DNA of 64,000 nt from Oscillospiraceae bacterium (GTDB lineage Bacteria; Bacillota; Clostridia; Oscillospirales; Acutalibacteraceae), in assembly GCA_015066295.1 (NCBI GenBank), contig SVOR01000003.1, forward strand, positions 1 through 64,000, read 5' to 3'. The translations under genes and the position numbers were made by a program. The notes under the pieces are model-generated. The model was not told the origin of the DNA, did no database searches, and saw only the letters and a list, made by a program, of their open reading frames with translations. This document shows positions 8,221-64,000 of this stretch, piece by piece. Position 1 is the first letter of the stretch. Every line of letters starts with the position of its first letter.

Positions 8221-8260
8221 AGCATCATTTAGGTAGTGCTTGAAAAAATATACAATACCT

Positions 8261-8332
8261 ATAAAATGTTAGATTTTTTCATTAAATATATAACATTTTA
8301 TTGTTTTTTCGAATAAAAATCTTTGTTATAAT
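8261..8332 (+). promoter_or_regulatory. Inverted-repeat operator and promoter of the large secreted protein
   Basis: ATAAAATGTTA (8261-8271) and TAACATTTTAT (8291-8301) form a perfect 11-bp inverted repeat around a 19-bp spacer. A -10 box TATAAT lies at 8327-8332 with no good -35, which fits activator dependence. The same inverted repeat, with the same 26-bp gap from the right half-site to a -10-like box, recurs at 62152-62222 beside the AraC gene. The leader from 8333 to 8474 carries no evident gene; a GGAGGA site precedes the ATG at 8475. Confidence 0.7.
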
Positions 8333-8474: not shown

Positions 8475-11400
8475 ATGAAAGGCAAAAAACTTTCAAAAGC
8501 ATTGGCTTTTCTATTGGCCGTTGTAATGGTTTTCACAACGTTGCCGATGTTTGCCTTTGCTGAAGGTGAGGCAGAAACATATTGTGTTACTAAAGCTTCA
8601 CCCGCAATTCCTATGAATGCCATGACGCAGGTAAAACTTAGTGATTTAACATTTGAAATCGGCGATTCAATTGTTAATGGCGCTAATGTGGAAATCACAT
8701 TAGACGACACTACTAGCGATGTGGCTATCGGCAATGGTATTATTGTTGCTTATAACAAGGGTGCATACCCCGCAACAATCAGTTATCAAGGCCAAACACA
8801 GACTGTTTACATAGTAGTAAAGAGTTTAAGCGACACCGAATGGGTGCTTTACGAGCAAACATTTGGTGATTACTCGGCCGCTACTACTGAAAATCCTGTA
8901 CCGATTCCTGATGGTTGGGTTTCACAGGCTTACGCAAGTGAGAGCCATCTCGATGCTTCAATAAGATATACATACGTTGAATTTGAAAACGTAAGACCTT
9001 ATGCAACCAGCAATAATACGTTTACGGCCCCCGGTGTTGTACCGATTGGTAAGTACAGAGATTTACCGGGTGGTGTTAGCATGTATGGCGCACCGGCATA
9101 TTTTACACTTAATGATAGTGTTGTAAAGGATTTTGCCGATTACACTATAACCTCTAATATGATTATATATTCTAACAACTACTATTGTGCTTATACTACT
9201 TCACCGGTTGGCGCAGGTCTGTTTGGTCGTGCGCAGGTTAGTGCTACAGGTAGAATGGATGTAGAAAACACCGACTTTAGTGCTATTGTCGTTGACCCTG
9301 CGTCAAGAACTAAGGACGGCGTTGCATACGGTCTAAACGTAGCTCATCTTAAGATGATATCAAAACCCAACAACAGTAATGTTCGCGCAAAGAAAACGGC
9401 AACATTCTTTAAGGAGAATGATGCAAACATTCGTTGGAGCTACCTAAACGGCAAACAAAATAAAGAAGTTTCTTTAACACTTAAATACGACGGTACAACC
9501 GCTACATTATCATCATCTGCAGATACCGAGGCACGTACCTTTACTGTAAGCGACATTGCTGACAATAATGGTGCAGTTGGTGTTGCCGTACAGCAGTTCG
9601 ACGATAGCGGTCAGACAACAGCCGTTAATGTTAAGACCTTTAAGGTTGCACTTAATAACGCACCTGCCGATTGCCCCGTTTATAGCGATATTCCCACCTA
9701 TGAAGTTTCTAAAACGTCACCTGCTATCCCAATGAATGCCATGACTAAGGTTAATATGGCTGACCTTAGTTTTGAAATTCAGGACACTACAGTTAATGGT
9801 AAGTCGGTTGAGCTTACATTGATTGATAATACCGATAATGTAGTAATTAGTGACGGCGCTATTTTTGCTTACAAGAAGGGTATCTACGCCGCTACTTTAA
9901 CCTACGAAGGCGTAGAAAAGACTGTATATATTGTAGTAAAGGACGCAGAGGATAAAGAATGGGTGCTTTACGAAGAGACGTTTGGTGATTATTCAGACGT
10001 TACCTATGAAAGCAATACTGCTTTCCCTGCTGGTTGGGCTGCACAGGCTTATTTAGCAAAGGATGTAAAAGACCTTTCTAATAATGTCTTGACCGATCTT
10101 CAATATTCGTATTTTGATTTCCCGTACGTTTCACCGTATAAAACAAGCTATTACGATATGACTGCCGTGGCACCCGGTATCAACCCGATACCTTCTACGC
10201 GTCTACATCCTGATTACCAATTCAAGGCGTATGGTATGACCGGTTATATGATTCTTAACGATAGCGTTGTAAACGCATTTGCCGATTATACCATTACTTC
10301 AAATATGGTTGTTTTTGGTAACGCTCTATACGTTACACAGGGCACAACGGCAGGTGGCGGTCTATTTGGCCGTGCTATCGTTAATGCTGACGGTAAGTTT
10401 GAAGAAGAATTGACATCACTTACCGGATTTTTAGCTCAACCGACAACCGACCATAACGGCAATGCTGACACCGGTTTACACGTTCATCAGTTAACCGTAA
10501 CTCCGAAATCCGGCGCTACCAACGTATCAGTTTCAAGAACAAAGCTTACCAATAGTGCTTCAAGCACTCAGTGGGAATATTTAAGAGGTAAAAACAAGAA
10601 GGCAATAGACCTCTCTGTTAAATTTGATGGCGCAAAAGCTACACTTTCTTCACCAAGCGATGCAGCCGGAGTTAACTACGTAGTAAATGACGTTGCACAA
10701 AACAATGGTGCAGTTGGTGTTGCTACCAGCTATTTCGATGACGGTGGTCAGGCTACCGTTGTGGTTGTAAAAGAGTTTAAGGTTGCTCTTAACAACACTG
10801 CAGGTTATTGCCCCGCTTATAGCGAGCTTTCAATCTATAAGGTTGACGACAATACACCCGTTGTTCCGATGACTGCTCACTCATACACCAACCTTGCTAA
10901 CGTTATGTTAAGCTTTGGCGATGACCTTGTGTTAGCAAATGCTGCAGAGTGGACTTCACTTGATGAGCAGCCCGTATTTGAAGGCTCGAAGGTTACCGTT
11001 TACGGTGCAGGTACATATACCGCAAAGGCCACCTATAAGGGTGTTACCAAAACTGTTTACTTCGTAGTTAAAAATGCCGATGACGCAAATTACGTTGTTT
11101 ACGGTGCTGACTTTGACCGTGACGTAGGCAACGATTGGACACTTTATAACGGCAGTTTTGCTGTGCTTGATAAGACCGACGTTTACAACGATACGTCTAA
11201 CTACGAGATGTTCAATGGCTTTAAGATTGCCCAAAACAACTATTTGATGCTCGATAACGAGATTATCAGGAACCTGCGCGACTACACAATGAGTGTTGAG
11301 TTTGGTTACAGCGGCACAATGAGTGATAACTCATGGGGTTGTCTATATCTATTAGGACGTGCTGACGTAACAGTGCCTACTGCCGACTTTAACACCGCAA

Positions 11401-13403
11401 TGGTAGGCTTTATGCCGAGATTATCGTCAACACCTATCCGTTTGTTCTACAGGAACGATAAATATAACACCAACTGTAAGGATACCGCAGAGCAAGATTA
11501 CATCTATACCGTTGGTGATTTAGTAGAAGCAACCGTTAAGCTAAATGATAAGCAGGTTATCGCTACTATTGATGGTGTAGAAATTTACGACACCTTAAAG
11601 GATTCAGCTTATACCGCCACTATGAGAGACCGTCTCCCCGTTACGGGTGGTAACGTAGGTCTTAAGGCTTCCTACAACTATGCAATTAAGCGTTACGAAA
11701 TAAGACTTAACGCCGAAACAGTTGAGGGTGCACCTGCTTGCGCACCGCTTAACAACGTTCTTACCAACAACACCCTCTATATGACCGAGGGTACACGCCT
11801 CGCTATGTCAGACGTTAAGCTTGTATTCGGTAATGAAACCGTAGCAGGCGACAAGGCTAAGTGGAGCTACGTTCGAAATGACGTAACAGAGGTTAGTGAC
11901 TTCTTCAAGACCGTTTGTGCATTTACTGAAGGCAGTGAGAATATCACCGCCACCTACAATGGTCAGACCATCAACATCACTATTGTTGTTGAGACAGTTA
12001 AGACCGCTAACACCTATCCGGTGCTTACTTCAATGGTTGAGACCGACGGTAACGGTACAGCCGTTATTAAGCCGGTAGCAGATGACAACTATGCTTATCA
12101 AATTGCCATAACACCTAATGCAGGTTACGTTGTTGATACTGATAAGTCATACGTTTACAGCTACAAGACAACCATTAAGATGCTTGGACGTACTGCAGAC
12201 AGCACAGGTAACACACTTGTTGCCGACTTTGACGCACTTGACGACATTGTAGTTAACCTAACCTTTAAGGCTGACAAAGCTGCTGACGTTACCATGATTG
12301 GTAGCACCATTCGTTACGCAAATGAAGAAACAGGTGTTACCAACGGTATTCGTTTTGGTATGCGTTCATACAACGTTAAGAATGCAAGAATTGATACTAT
12401 AATCGTTGATGGCGTTGAGTATAATGTTGTTGGCGTAGGTATGGTAATGTTGCCGAAACCCTTGCTTGAGGGTGAGCTCACTGTAAACACCAAGAACGCA
12501 CGCTATAAGGAGTTTACCTCGGTAGTTGATTCTACCGCTAACTATGCCGACTTTGCAATGGTGCTTACAAATCTTCCTGAGGAATATCTAACACTTGATA
12601 TTGCTTCACGCGGATTTATTAAGTACGAAATCTCTGAAGGCAATTACGGTTACTACTATGCAGACGAATTACAAAGCTCGTTTGAAAAAATCGAGAAGCG
12701 TATCGAATCTGCAGAGCTCAAGTTTGACTTCTATTATTCTGATTTCGATAAGGGTTATATAACCATGGTTTACGACGACTACCGTGGTGACTTAGGTACA
12801 GTATTTAGTATCTTTGAAGAGAAAAATGTACCTCTCGTTGCTGCAATTCCGCCCGAAACCGTAACCTCTGACAGTAAAGCTGCATTACTTCACAATATTC
12901 AGAATGCAGGCGGCGAAATCATTGGTCACCACTTCACAGTTCTGACATCTGCTATGACTTCAGAGCAGAAGTTTGATAAGCTCAAGACAACCTACGATGT
13001 ATTAACAAGCTACGGACTAAATGTTAATGGTTATATATTAGCAGGTGGTACCAACCAGGGCGATATCAACCGTAAGGAAATTGAAACAATGCTTAGAAAG
13101 ATTGGTTTCAGTTATAGTGATCTTTATGGTATTTCACCTAACTACTACCATCCACGTTCTTCAATGGCTACAAGTAATGATAGCACAATTAAGAAAAATA
13201 TCACTACTGCGGGCAATAGCAAAACATGGCTTTCATTCTATGCTCATGACCTTAATACAGAACGTACGGCAGATGAGTTGCGCGAACTCATTGAGTATAT
13301 CCAGGCTGACCCTAACGTTGAGATTGTTACATATAAGTACATCTATCAAAACTTTGGTAACTTCCGTAATCCTGTAAATTGGAATAACGGTGTTACACAG
13401 TAA
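8475..13403 (+). CDS. Large secreted modular protein with polysaccharide-deacetylase-like C-terminus
   Basis: The 1642-residue exported protein has a signal peptide (residues 1-28, ending MFAFA). Three tandem modules of about 375 residues begin near residues 42, 415 and 793. Each pairs a short Ig-like unit (SPAIPMNAMT in the first two) with a LamG-like beta-sandwich that starts near WVLYEQTFGDY. A partial fourth Ig unit begins near 1095. A beta-rich region at 1275-1415 is common in clostridial surface proteins. The last 215 residues resemble polysaccharide deacetylase: YITMVYDDYRGD with an Asp pair, then GEIIGHHF. The usual HxxxH metal motif is not evident, so activity is uncertain. No sorting signal is seen. 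Its promoter carries an operator shared with the AraC gene at 60400-62142, which itself contains this protein's repeat module. Confidence 0.75.
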   Translation: MKGKKLSKALAFLLAVVMVFTTLPMFAFAEGEAETYCVTKASPAIPMNAMTQVKLSDLTFEIGDSIVNGANVEITLDDTTSDVAIGNGIIVAYNKGAYPATISYQGQTQTVYIVVKSLSDTEWVLYEQTFGDYSAATTENPVPIPDGWVSQAYASESHLDASIRYTYVEFENVRPYATSNNTFTAPGVVPIGKYRDLPGGVSMYGAPAYFTLNDSVVKDFADYTITSNMIIYSNNYYCAYTTSPVGAGLFGRAQVSATGRMDVENTDFSAIVVDPASRTKDGVAYGLNVAHLKMISKPNNSNVRAKKTATFFKENDANIRWSYLNGKQNKEVSLTLKYDGTTATLSSSADTEARTFTVSDIADNNGAVGVAVQQFDDSGQTTAVNVKTFKVALNNAPADCPVYSDIPTYEVSKTSPAIPMNAMTKVNMADLSFEIQDTTVNGKSVELTLIDNTDNVVISDGAIFAYKKGIYAATLTYEGVEKTVYIVVKDAEDKEWVLYEETFGDYSDVTYESNTAFPAGWAAQAYLAKDVKDLSNNVLTDLQYSYFDFPYVSPYKTSYYDMTAVAPGINPIPSTRLHPDYQFKAYGMTGYMILNDSVVNAFADYTITSNMVVFGNALYVTQGTTAGGGLFGRAIVNADGKFEEELTSLTGFLAQPTTDHNGNADTGLHVHQLTVTPKSGATNVSVSRTKLTNSASSTQWEYLRGKNKKAIDLSVKFDGAKATLSSPSDAAGVNYVVNDVAQNNGAVGVATSYFDDGGQATVVVVKEFKVALNNTAGYCPAYSELSIYKVDDNTPVVPMTAHSYTNLANVMLSFGDDLVLANAAEWTSLDEQPVFEGSKVTVYGAGTYTAKATYKGVTKTVYFVVKNADDANYVVYGADFDRDVGNDWTLYNGSFAVLDKTDVYNDTSNYEMFNGFKIAQNNYLMLDNEIIRNLRDYTMSVEFGYSGTMSDNSWGCLYLLGRADVTVPTADFNTAMVGFMPRLSSTPIRLFYRNDKYNTNCKDTAEQDYIYTVGDLVEATVKLNDKQVIATIDGVEIYDTLKDSAYTATMRDRLPVTGGNVGLKASYNYAIKRYEIRLNAETVEGAPACAPLNNVLTNNTLYMTEGTRLAMSDVKLVFGNETVAGDKAKWSYVRNDVTEVSDFFKTVCAFTEGSENITATYNGQTINITIVVETVKTANTYPVLTSMVETDGNGTAVIKPVADDNYAYQIAITPNAGYVVDTDKSYVYSYKTTIKMLGRTADSTGNTLVADFDALDDIVVNLTFKADKAADVTMIGSTIRYANEETGVTNGIRFGMRSYNVKNARIDTIIVDGVEYNVVGVGMVMLPKPLLEGELTVNTKNARYKEFTSVVDSTANYADFAMVLTNLPEEYLTLDIASRGFIKYEISEGNYGYYYADELQSSFEKIEKRIESAELKFDFYYSDFDKGYITMVYDDYRGDLGTVFSIFEEKNVPLVAAIPPETVTSDSKAALLHNIQNAGGEIIGHHFTVLTSAMTSEQKFDKLKTTYDVLTSYGLNVNGYILAGGTNQGDINRKEIETMLRKIGFSYSDLYGISPNYYHPRSSMATSNDSTIKKNITTAGNSKTWLSFYAHDLNTERTADELRELIEYIQADPNVEIVTYKYIYQNFGNFRNPVNWNNGVTQ

Positions 13404-60355: not shown

Positions 60356-60400
60356 GTGGCACCTTCCTTACGGAGGGTGCCACAAAGGGTGTTGTTTTTT
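60356..60400 (-). terminator. Terminator-like hairpin of the AraC gene ending at 60400
   Basis: GTGGCACCTTCC (60356-60367) and GGAGGGTGCCAC (60372-60383) form a 12-bp stem with one wobble pair, 17 bases past the minus-strand stop codon. The following sequence is not T-rich, so efficiency is uncertain. Confidence 0.6.
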
Positions 60401-62142
60401 TATTGTCGTTTAAGACTTTTAATATATTGCGTGGGTGTTTGCCCAAACTCTTTTTTAAACGCAAATATATACGAGTCGGGGCTTTTATATCCAAGCATTT
60501 CGGCGGTACGATGTATTGTTCTATTTTCAACTCGCAATAGATTTTTTGATGCTGCAAGTTTTTTCGAGATTATATATTGTTGCAATGTCATACCTGTTTC
60601 GTTTTTAAACACTGTGCTTAAATATTTACTGTTAAATCCGAATTTAGCGGCGATTGTCTCAACGGTAATCGTATTCCAATTATTGTTGCCGTTTTTATCA
60701 AGAAATGCTTTTATTTTAGACGATATGGATAACGCCGATGCATCCTCTTGATTTTTTGTTGCATTATCGCAGGCAATAAGCAGGGAATTTATAATATCGA
60801 AAAGCTCTTTTGGATTTTTGGTATTCTTTGCTTTTTCAAAAGTTTTATCGGCATCGGGTAGTGTGAAAATCATATTATAGGCAAGGTCGGGTATTTCTAT
60901 ATTGGTATCAAAGCCTATCCACACGTATTTCCAGTTTGCATTGTTTGCTTTAAAATAGAATTCGCTGTTTGGCGGCAAATAAAAGCAACGTCCCGTATTG
61001 GCACGGATAATACAATTGGATTTTGTGTCGCGTTTGGGTAAAGCAGATAATATATCCGCCTGTGCCTTTTGGCAGGTACGTGTGTTCGGGCGAGTAATCA
61101 GCTTATAATCGCTTACCGTAATTATTGCGCCGGCAGGCTGTGAGTAGGACGCGGCACAATAATCCGATTTAGCTATCGGTCTGTTCTTTTGATTAAGCCT
61201 TGTAATAAAGCCCATACGCTTATAAACCCAAAAGCCGTTATCTGTTGTGAAAATTTCACATGATAGGGTATAGTCGGCAAAATGCTTTACAATATCAGAA
61301 TTCAGCTTTAAAACAAATGGGATTACATTGTTGGTAATTTCCAAAAAAGCTTTAAAGGGTCCGCTTTCAATAAGTTTAACGTTTTTGAGCGGCAGCTTAT
61401 CAAAAAACTGTTCTACGGTAAACGGGTTGTCTTCTTTATTCCAATTTTTAAATTCGTAAGAAAATAAAACAAAATTGCCGTCCTTATCGGTTTTGCTTAC
61501 AATGAAGAACTTTTTAACCCTTTTTTGATATTCGCCGTAAAGGGTGTAGACGCCTTGCTTTTTAACCTTAAAGGTATTGTTTTTTAAAACTACGTCCGCT
61601 TCTTCACAGCTCCACTTAATTTGTCTGCCATTCACTGAAATTTTTTGTGAAAAGCCAAAGTTAAAATCATTTAAATTATATTCCGTATTAATGCGAATGG
61701 GTATTGCCGGGCTTGAATACTTTACGGTGTGTGGGGTGTTTGGCGCTATGGCATTTTTGTTATTAAGCGTTATGTTAAAGTTTTTGATATGTATAGCCAT
61801 ATCGTGCGAATATATACCTACCGTGCCGTTGCTCGTTGGTATTTTTTGCTTTTTACCTATAAAGGCGGGGTCTTTTTCGGTGTCGTATAATTCAATTTCG
61901 TCGTCGCCATTTTTCGCTATATACATTTTTATGTGTTGCCCGTTAAAACAAGTGCGCAAATTATAAATAACGTCGGTGCGTCTAATTGTACCACTGCCCG
62001 AGGTTGTAAAACCAAAAACGTGGTAGGGTATTCTAAAAGGCCCGCAAAGACTGTTTGCAGGTTCGCTTTCTTCGTTTACTGTTTTGGGTGTTATGTATAT
62101 ATCGCCGTGTGTTATATTTTGATAGTTTTTTAAATCGTCCAT
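60400..62142 (-). CDS. AraC-family regulator with an Ig/LamG-like module inserted in its cupin domain
   Basis: The 580-residue protein starts with an AraC cupin (YHVFGFTTSGSGTIRRTDVI, residues 40-59). The cupin resumes only near residue 376 (NCIIRANTGRCFYLPPNSEF, then WKYVWIGFDT). Residues about 64-372 are an insert matching the repeat module of the secreted protein at 8475. It has IELYDTEKDPAF, SSPAIPI with NLNDFNF, and SDIVKHFADYTLSCEIF. The half-sandwiches are in permuted order. The C-terminal helix-turn-helices (TVETIAAKFGFNSKYLSTVF, TAEMLGYKSPDSYIFAFKKE) are intact, so it should bind DNA. No signal peptide. The operator in its promoter is shared with the 8475 gene. Confidence 0.85.
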   Translation of the reverse strand: MDDLKNYQNITHGDIYITPKTVNEESEPANSLCGPFRIPYHVFGFTTSGSGTIRRTDVIYNLRTCFNGQHIKMYIAKNGDDEIELYDTEKDPAFIGKKQKIPTSNGTVGIYSHDMAIHIKNFNITLNNKNAIAPNTPHTVKYSSPAIPIRINTEYNLNDFNFGFSQKISVNGRQIKWSCEEADVVLKNNTFKVKKQGVYTLYGEYQKRVKKFFIVSKTDKDGNFVLFSYEFKNWNKEDNPFTVEQFFDKLPLKNVKLIESGPFKAFLEITNNVIPFVLKLNSDIVKHFADYTLSCEIFTTDNGFWVYKRMGFITRLNQKNRPIAKSDYCAASYSQPAGAIITVSDYKLITRPNTRTCQKAQADILSALPKRDTKSNCIIRANTGRCFYLPPNSEFYFKANNANWKYVWIGFDTNIEIPDLAYNMIFTLPDADKTFEKAKNTKNPKELFDIINSLLIACDNATKNQEDASALSISSKIKAFLDKNGNNNWNTITVETIAAKFGFNSKYLSTVFKNETGMTLQQYIISKKLAASKNLLRVENRTIHRTAEMLGYKSPDSYIFAFKKEFGQTPTQYIKSLKRQ

Positions 62143-62151
62143 ACGTCACCT

Positions 62152-62222
62152 ATAAAATGTTAGATTTCTTAGTAATTATATAACATTTTATTGTTTTTTT
62201 CAAGAAAAAATTCGGGTAAAAT
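62152..62222. promoter_or_regulatory. Shared inverted-repeat operator between the AraC gene and the plus-strand RNA
   Basis: ATAAAATGTTA (62152-62162) and TAACATTTTAT (62181-62191) form a perfect inverted repeat with 18-bp spacer. The sequence continues TTGTTTTTT as at 8301. A plus-strand -10-like box TAAAAT lies at 62217-62222, at the same distance from the right half-site as at 8327. On the minus side the repeat is 10 bases from the AraC start codon, suggesting autoregulation. Confidence 0.7.
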
Positions 62223-62226
62223 AAAA

Positions 62227-62400
62227 ATGGTCCTATTAAATTTAATAGTGACCTCCTAGTATTTACGTATGGCTGATGTAGAACGCTTATTTTAAGCGGT
62301 TATGCATCGGTCATACGGTTGTACACATTTATTTAATATTTAAAATGGTGAGGGAGAAGAGATTACCTGGAGTGACCTCTGGACTTCGGCCATGAACAAA
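62227..62400 (+). ncRNA. Structured RNA candidate, possibly 6S-like
   Basis: No protein fits. ATGGTC (62227-62232) pairs with GGCCAT (62388-62393) to close the structure. Inside, ATGGCTGATG pairs with CATCGGTCAT over ten bases and is capped by AACGCTT/AAGCGGTT. CTCC pairs with GGAG further out. A terminator follows at 62418. Size (about 170-200 nt), single long stem with open middle, and an upstream -10 box suggest a small RNA; 6S RNA is one possibility, but I cannot confirm a family. Confidence 0.45.
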
Positions 62401-62417
62401 CAGTAATATTTAGCAAA

Positions 62418-62456
62418 AATCCCGACAGAGTATTCTGTCGGGATTTATTTTTTTTA
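62418..62456 (+). terminator. Rho-independent terminator of the RNA candidate
   Basis: AAATCCCGACAG (62418-62429) and CTGTCGGGATTT (62435-62446) form a perfect 12-bp stem followed by T-rich sequence. Confidence 0.9.
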
Positions 62457-63189: not shown

Positions 63190-63204
63190 TGGGGGTTGAA
63201 AAAG

Positions 63205-64000
63205 ATGATTAAAAGGTTATTTGCATTGCTCTTGTGTGTAGCAGTTATGTTTTCGCTTGTTGCGTGTGGTGGCGGTAGCGAGAGCGGCGGCACCAATAAC
63301 AAGGGCGAAAAGGTAAATTATGGTAGCGTTAAGCTAATCGAAGAGTATGAAGACACCATAACGGGCGTATTTGACGAAAAAAATATTGTTCTTACGTTCG
63401 CAGCACTTAGTGACACACACTTAGCCGGAAATGAGCAACAGTATCAATCATCATATGATAGATTCACAAAGGCCATAAATTCGTGTGAAAAGTTTGCTAC
63501 TACCAAAAAGTTAGATGCCATTTGTATTGCGGGTGACTTGGGTAATTGTACAAATTCACCTGCTAACGTAATTGGGGTTAAGGACGGTCAGACTAAAGAG
63601 CAAGCACAGGCAGAACAGGGAAAAATTGAACGCGAAAACTTTTTACGCGCATATCTTGCCGCAGCCGATGTTAAAACAAAACTTTTTTACTGCCTTGGCA
63701 ACCACGATAGCATGAATGGATCTAACGCGCAGTTATACATTGATTCGTTCTCCGGTAAGAACAAGCAGTATTATAATCGCTTCTATGGTGATGACCTTGA
63801 TAAAGAAGCATTGGTTAAGGGTAACAGACACGTTAAAATTAACGGATATAACTTCTTGGCTCTTGAAGGTTCAGCTGAAGGAAAAACCGATGCCGATGGA
63901 CATGCATGGCTTGAATCGAAGATTAAGTCTATTATTGCTGAGGATCCGCAACAAACCATATTCTTATTCCATCATTATCCCCCTACAGGCCTTGCGTTTG
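63205..64000 (+). CDS. Secreted metallophosphoesterase lipoprotein (partial, runs off the window)
   Basis: The lipoprotein signal MIKRLFALLLCVAVMFSLVA is followed by lipobox cysteine in VACGGG. A calcineurin-like phosphoesterase domain follows with metal motifs LSDTHLAG, CIAGDLGN, CLGNHDS and FHHYPP. The frame is open to the last base, so the C-terminus is missing. Starts 15 bases after trmB. It probably hydrolyses phosphoesters outside the membrane; substrate unknown. Confidence 0.88.
   Translation, partial: MIKRLFALLLCVAVMFSLVACGGGSESGGTNNKGEKVNYGSVKLIEEYEDTITGVFDEKNIVLTFAALSDTHLAGNEQQYQSSYDRFTKAINSCEKFATTKKLDAICIAGDLGNCTNSPANVIGVKDGQTKEQAQAEQGKIERENFLRAYLAAADVKTKLFYCLGNHDSMNGSNAQLYIDSFSGKNKQYYNRFYGDDLDKEALVKGNRHVKINGYNFLALEGSAEGKTDADGHAWLESKIKSIIAEDPQQTIFLFHHYPPTGLAF

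Follow-up and report, generated by a model that had tools for sequence, protein, structure and literature searches.

Among regulators of the AraC/XylS family with an N-terminal cupin (PF02311 + PF12833), members of the 'FGPA.R.YWLLHYV.SGxG' subgroup have, like the protein araW described here, a C-terminal double helix-turn-helix (HTH), and their cupin strands correspond to those flanking the araW insert, whereas araW carries a surface-type module of about 320 residues in one cupin hairpin. Divergent genes for an AraC regulator and a surface protein are a known arrangement (PMC7098570); it is found likewise for the YSIRK-adjacent AraC regulators (TIGR04094), such as Spy1337 beside Spy1336/R28, and control of R28 by Spy1337 has been proposed in Streptococcus (PMC7098570). 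araW is not a YSIRK-adjacent regulator: TIGR04094 was its best NCBIfam match, but through the HTH only and with 55.2 bits against a family cut-off of 200 bits, and the YSIRK motif was absent from the signal peptide of S36, the secreted protein encoded beside araC36, the paralogue of araW. To our knowledge, no YSIRK-adjacent AraC regulator carries a module of the surface protein under its control. In Btr of Bacillus, a siderophore-binding domain of the substrate-binding-protein-like type is fused to an AraC HTH. Like Btr, araW is predicted to be a cytoplasmic AraC regulator with an extracytoplasmic-type binding domain, which is the sensor in Btr and a putative sensor in araW; in Btr, however, this domain is joined end to end, whereas in araW it is inserted in the cupin, permuted and of another fold. 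Model NF049932 matched araW through the HTH only. As to the fold of the insert, related modules of the order, with a Big_2-type Ig unit, approach PF06439 (3-keto-disaccharide hydrolase/DUF1080-type, concanavalin-like sandwich), one module from another family reaching E 3.5e-5 (24.4 bits, cut-off 26.8), whereas the insert and the modules of the genus matched no Pfam sandwich family including PF06439. In the literature collection searched, nothing was found on insertions into AraC cupins or on the DUF1080 fold.

The gene araW lies in a window of 64,000 nucleotides, the whole stretch of DNA that was analysed, and the features of the locus are listed in Table 1. By its sequence, the product is assigned to the AraC/XylS family, with both the C-terminal double HTH and the N-terminal cupin present. 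The double HTH was above the curated Pfam cut-offs (HTH_AraC, E 6e-17, in two stretches; HTH_18, E 1.9e-15), and AraC_binding recognised residues 380-412 only, with 14.9 bits, below its cut-off of 21.1, presumably because the cupin is split. When araW was aligned with its nearest uninterrupted AraC relatives from the same bacterial family (mostly 258-307 aa), both cupin halves matched these intact proteins on either side of the insert, which bears out the earlier proposal of one AraC cupin divided in two. Residues 1-62 correspond to the first cupin strands (GPFRIPYHVFGFTTSGSGTIRRTDVIYNL) and the next strands begin at about residue 380 (TGRCFYLPPNSEFYFKANNANWKYVWIGF), the two stretches being joined directly in intact relatives (DDKTYSLKPGECFVIFP). 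The insertion point is in one cupin hairpin, between 'VIYNL' and 'TGRCFYLPP', corresponding to 'TYSL' followed by 'KPGECFVIFP' in the intact relatives. The insert comprises about 320 residues. Neither araW nor araC36 has a signal peptide or a membrane stretch (maximum 19-residue hydropathy, 0.88 and 0.78, respectively), in agreement with the cytoplasmic location previously assumed, and the lack of a hydrophobic stretch sets this regulator apart from the secreted module proteins.

Table 1. Features of the araW locus and of the S6 region in the window
Feature	Position	Strand	Basis
AraC-family regulator araW, with inserted module	60400..62142	-	580 aa, single open frame
araW N-terminal cupin part, residues 1-62	61957..62142	-	alignment with uninterrupted AraC proteins
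araW insert, beta-sandwich C-terminal half, residues 63-136 (match from residue 58)	61735..61956	-	sandwich profile positions 183-256, i-E 5e-11
araW insert, Ig-like (Big_2-type) unit, residues 137-218	61489..61734	-	Ig profile i-E 4.3e-13; AlphaFold pLDDT mostly 82-94
araW insert, beta-sandwich N-terminal half, residues 219-379	61006..61488	-	sandwich profile positions 49-164 in native order; from position 3 once halves are swapped back
araW C-terminal cupin part and linker, residues 380-480	60703..61005	-	AraC_binding match and alignment with intact relatives
araW AraC DNA-binding domain (two HTH), residues 481-580	60403..60702	-	HTH_AraC E 6e-17, HTH_18 E 1.9e-15
Divergent promoter region of araW	62143..62225	.	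62148-62209 homologous to 8257-8319
Two-hairpin leader element, divergent from araW	62226..62320	+	RNA fold z -7.6; model R1 70.8 bits
Terminator-like hairpin, ending a short divergent unit	62418..62453	+	ATCCCGACAGAGTATTCTGTCGGGAT then T-rich run
DNA upstream of S6, homologous to araW promoter region	8257..8319	+	sequence match
Secreted protein S6, tandem Ig + sandwich modules (module family of the insert)	8475..13403	+	signal peptide MKGKKLSKALAFLLAVVMVFTTLPMFAFA by eye

The preliminary description had related the insert to the repeat module of S6, and this homology was confirmed by BLASTP (E 1e-12 for araW 101-235; E 3e-6 for araW 81-223 with S6 1033-1179, including an 'EIYDT' match) and by significant sandwich and Ig profile matches. 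The profiles were built from 23 sandwiches (263 positions) and 46 Ig units, taken from module-bearing ORFs of the three congeners and from seven secreted proteins with modules in the source genome. On araW, the sandwich profile matched twice, its positions 183-256 falling on residues 58-135 and its positions 49-164 on residues 258-368, and the Ig profile matched residues 137-218 (E 4.3e-13) between the two sandwich halves, giving the order C-half sandwich, Ig-like unit, N-half sandwich. The order in araC36 was identical (residues 59-135, positions 184-256; residues 233-326, positions 21-119), and the Ig profile matched there with E 4.3e-10; both regulators have the Ig-like unit of the secreted genus module, which is characterised by an 'SPAIPM' start. 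When the halves were swapped back, one continuous sandwich match was obtained for araW (3-255 of 263; from 57.5 to 66.9 bits) and a single match for araC36 (22-255; from 63.4 to 72.0 bits), compared with 10.6 bits for the best of 500 shuffles, which rules out a chance likeness of insert and module. A complete sandwich domain is thus present in both regulators in permuted order only, and the circular permutation is real; the limits of the permuted module, previously placed at residues 64-372, were moved to about 58/63 to 379. Since the modules are tandem repeats, the permuted order is equally that of one repeat unit cut out of register, which would be its simplest origin.

Structure prediction of the insert and the module was confident for the Ig unit only (pLDDT mostly 82-94); strands were predicted for the sandwich part, but with pLDDT <50 over most of it and only 3-5 sequences in the input, AraC proteins having been left out of the structure alignments as misaligned. 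Structure searches related the Ig unit to the Ig domains of LigA/LigB and S-layer proteins, and whole-model PDB searches returned mainly Ig matches, none at E <= 0.001.

A further insert-bearing AraC protein with a neighbouring secreted homologue, the search for which had been proposed earlier, was found in the source genome: the full-length paralogue araC36 (contig C36:638-2377, minus strand), beside S36. It is 39% identical to araW over residues 16-577 with a matching architecture, and identity was 46% in the sandwich C-half, 52% in the Ig unit and 37% in the N-half, compared with 29% in the N-cupin, 35% in the C-cupin and 34% in the HTH, so that conservation between the two proteins is highest in the insert. 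Codons of the two genes agreed at 32-45% of third positions and at 62-70% of the second positions of the insert. An error of assembly or of frame reading might be feared in a draft genome of 44 contigs, but matching architectures in single open frames, at 39% identity, on two independent contigs (C6 and C36) leave such an artefact next to no probability, and the second copy on another contig refutes it. The conservation of the insert also marks it as functional and not an assembly error, and it is under selection at the protein level, no less strongly than the DNA-binding domain. That it is a functionless piece of a surface gene, recently thrown into a regulator by recombination, would agree with its restriction to a single genome among the four of the genus and with the repetitive nature of the secreted arrays, which may recombine; this is nevertheless very improbable, because 320 codons have stayed open at a shared position in both copies despite 39% identity, and because the insert is the most conserved part, its second codon positions being kept and the third much less. 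A functionless recent insert is contradicted by this conservation.

The common insertion point in araW and araC36 indicates that the insertion most likely took place once, before duplication, and the two inserts were recovered as one clade (100/97) when a tree was built from Ig units. This clade fell closer to modules from other families than to the S6 modules, with moderate support, the tree having few columns and long branches; capture of the insert from the gene at 8475, as implied in the preliminary description, is not supported by this tree.

The profile of the two regulators was searched against 398 genomes of the family, and the full architecture was found in the source genome only, the remaining listed matches covering the second cupin part and the HTH only. 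With the insert profile, the module was detected in each of the four genomes of the genus and in no other of these 398, insert-bearing regulators being present in one of the four. Eight other genomes among 394 of the order matched with frames of 880-1565 residues, two further families (63 and 146 genomes) gave a few more module matches, and 399 genomes of the phylum added none. No AraC HTH was found in the order-level module frames in the DNA examined; most of these frames have a secretion signal followed by a phosphodiesterase-type 'HRG' region. In other families of the order, secreted proteins combine the Ig + sandwich module, often placed near the N-terminus, with a glycerophosphodiesterase-type 'HRG' region (L136-L157). 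In the source genome, the module protein S18 has a metallophosphatase domain (PF00149) at its end, and two lipoproteins resembling free-standing relatives of this domain adjoin trmB, next to araW (coordinates of S18 and the two lipoproteins: L028 735-7181; window 63196-64000; L026 7197-10365). No insert-bearing relative was found in viral and genome collections with back-translated peptides as queries, and no third insert-bearing regulator in searches spanning 1849 genomes; these are drafts and samples, so that absence is not proof.

The gene araC36 is divergent from the gene for S36, a 926-aa protein with two such modules, and the genes are separated by about 210 bp. This back-to-back position suggests that araC36 controls that gene. 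The region upstream of S36 is homologous to those upstream of S21 (83% over 212 bp) and S18 (76% over 80 bp). araW, located between the gene for a 291-aa AraC protein and trmB, is not adjacent to any secreted module gene; its promoter DNA (62148-62209), however, is 89% identical over 63 bp to the DNA upstream of S6 (8257-8319; E 2.8e-16), about 54 kb away, and the next match elsewhere in the genome had E 0.005. This likeness suggests that araW was once the neighbour of S6 or of a copy of S6. Together, the divergence of araC36 and S36 and the upstream homologies link the insert-bearing regulators with module-bearing surface proteins. In the congener G002, araW was not found upstream of trmB as far as the contig extends; the DNA there is repetitive and stops at the contig end where araW would be (L132 5835-6416). 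In G002, moreover, an acetyltransferase gene like the neighbour of araC36 adjoins a related module gene without an intervening AraC gene, so that araC36 was either gained in the source genome or lost in G002. In the congener G003, two module genes each have a divergent, uninterrupted AraC gene (L120 4152-5006 and L127 581-1420). The pairing of AraC and module genes may have arisen more than once.

A two-hairpin element adjoins both insert-bearing regulators. Its three copies (window 62226-62320, plus strand; L025 2459-2546; L030 3412-3499) lie between araW and trmB and in the 5′ leaders of the secreted module genes S36 and S21, the latter having no adjacent AraC gene. The layout is a hairpin, the stretch CUCCU(A/C)GU(A/G)UUUA and a long hairpin. 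Two single sequences folded much better than shuffles (z -7.6 and -4.2), and model R1 scored 70.8 bits for the araW-side copy versus 106 for the other two. In this small set of three sequences, the helices stay paired despite two double changes, with several G-U pairs as well, which suggests an RNA rather than a palindromic protein site. No Rfam family was assigned, the scores being far below the gathering cut-offs, and among the loci examined no copy was found in congeners or ahead of further module genes. The element is a candidate new leader RNA, in which the CUCCU stretch might base-pair with the Shine-Dalgarno sequence. Past the element, window 62322-62453 contains a start-less 20-codon frame (NGEGEEITWSDLWTSAMNKQ) and the terminator-like hairpin. 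This stretch may be what is left of a deleted gene once divergent from araW, or may represent a short RNA.

As a whole, these data are best explained by regulation of module-bearing surface-protein genes by araW and araC36, with the insert as effector or sensor domain (probability, about 0.4). araW and araC36 are AraC-family regulators, predicted to be cytoplasmic, with a complete Ig + beta-sandwich module in one cupin hairpin; owing to the circular permutation of the sandwich, the insert should begin and end at one edge and fit the hairpin without breaking the cupin fold. The regulators would likely control the surface-protein genes bearing the module of the insert, along with their own divergent promoter, the presumed targets being S36, beside araC36, and S6, formerly probably beside araW. 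The insert, as a putative effector domain, might bind a small soluble form of the ligand of the surface module, for example an imported oligosaccharide, and the cupin might pass the signal on to the DNA-binding domain. Against such ligand sensing, intact glycans are not taken into the cytoplasm, and the identity of insert and secreted modules is only about 20-28%, so that the binding site need not be kept. The present separation of araW from any secreted module gene, the leader element of S21 with no AraC gene next to it and the low confidence of the predicted sandwich structure also count against the proposal. The more specific idea, that a regulator uses a permuted copy of the surface protein's own building block as its sensor and thereby controls that same protein, is rather unlikely.

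Two other functions of the insert were weighed. Somewhat unlikely is an oligomerisation or structural domain without ligand, holding the dimer or shaping the cupin, with any effector sensing left to the cupin. The residues common to insert and secreted modules do look mainly like core motifs (SPAIP, ADYT, NGTVG, KNF..LN), and the AraC N-terminal domain can also multimerise (PMC7098570), but this function predicts neither an insert conserved above the DNA-binding domain nor linkage with genes bearing the insert's module. Quite improbable is a protein-protein sensor of the not-yet-secreted surface protein, through which blocked or saturated secretion would feed back on its gene: regulator and presumed target protein share one module type, tandem modules may contact each other and regulator and surface gene are divergent neighbours, but association of modules would have to be assumed, and secretory precursors are usually kept unfolded. 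Regulation through an effector-binding insert is retained as the preferred reading.

The split cupin of araW indicates that the sensor domain of AraC proteins is extendable by insertion and not just by end-to-end fusion, and it is a natural counterpart of the joining of domains by protein engineers, who permute one domain to make its termini fit a loop in the other. Should the insert sense the ligand of the surface module, the regulator would help to tell what this uncharacterised family of surface modules binds, and would provide a ready intracellular reporter for that ligand.
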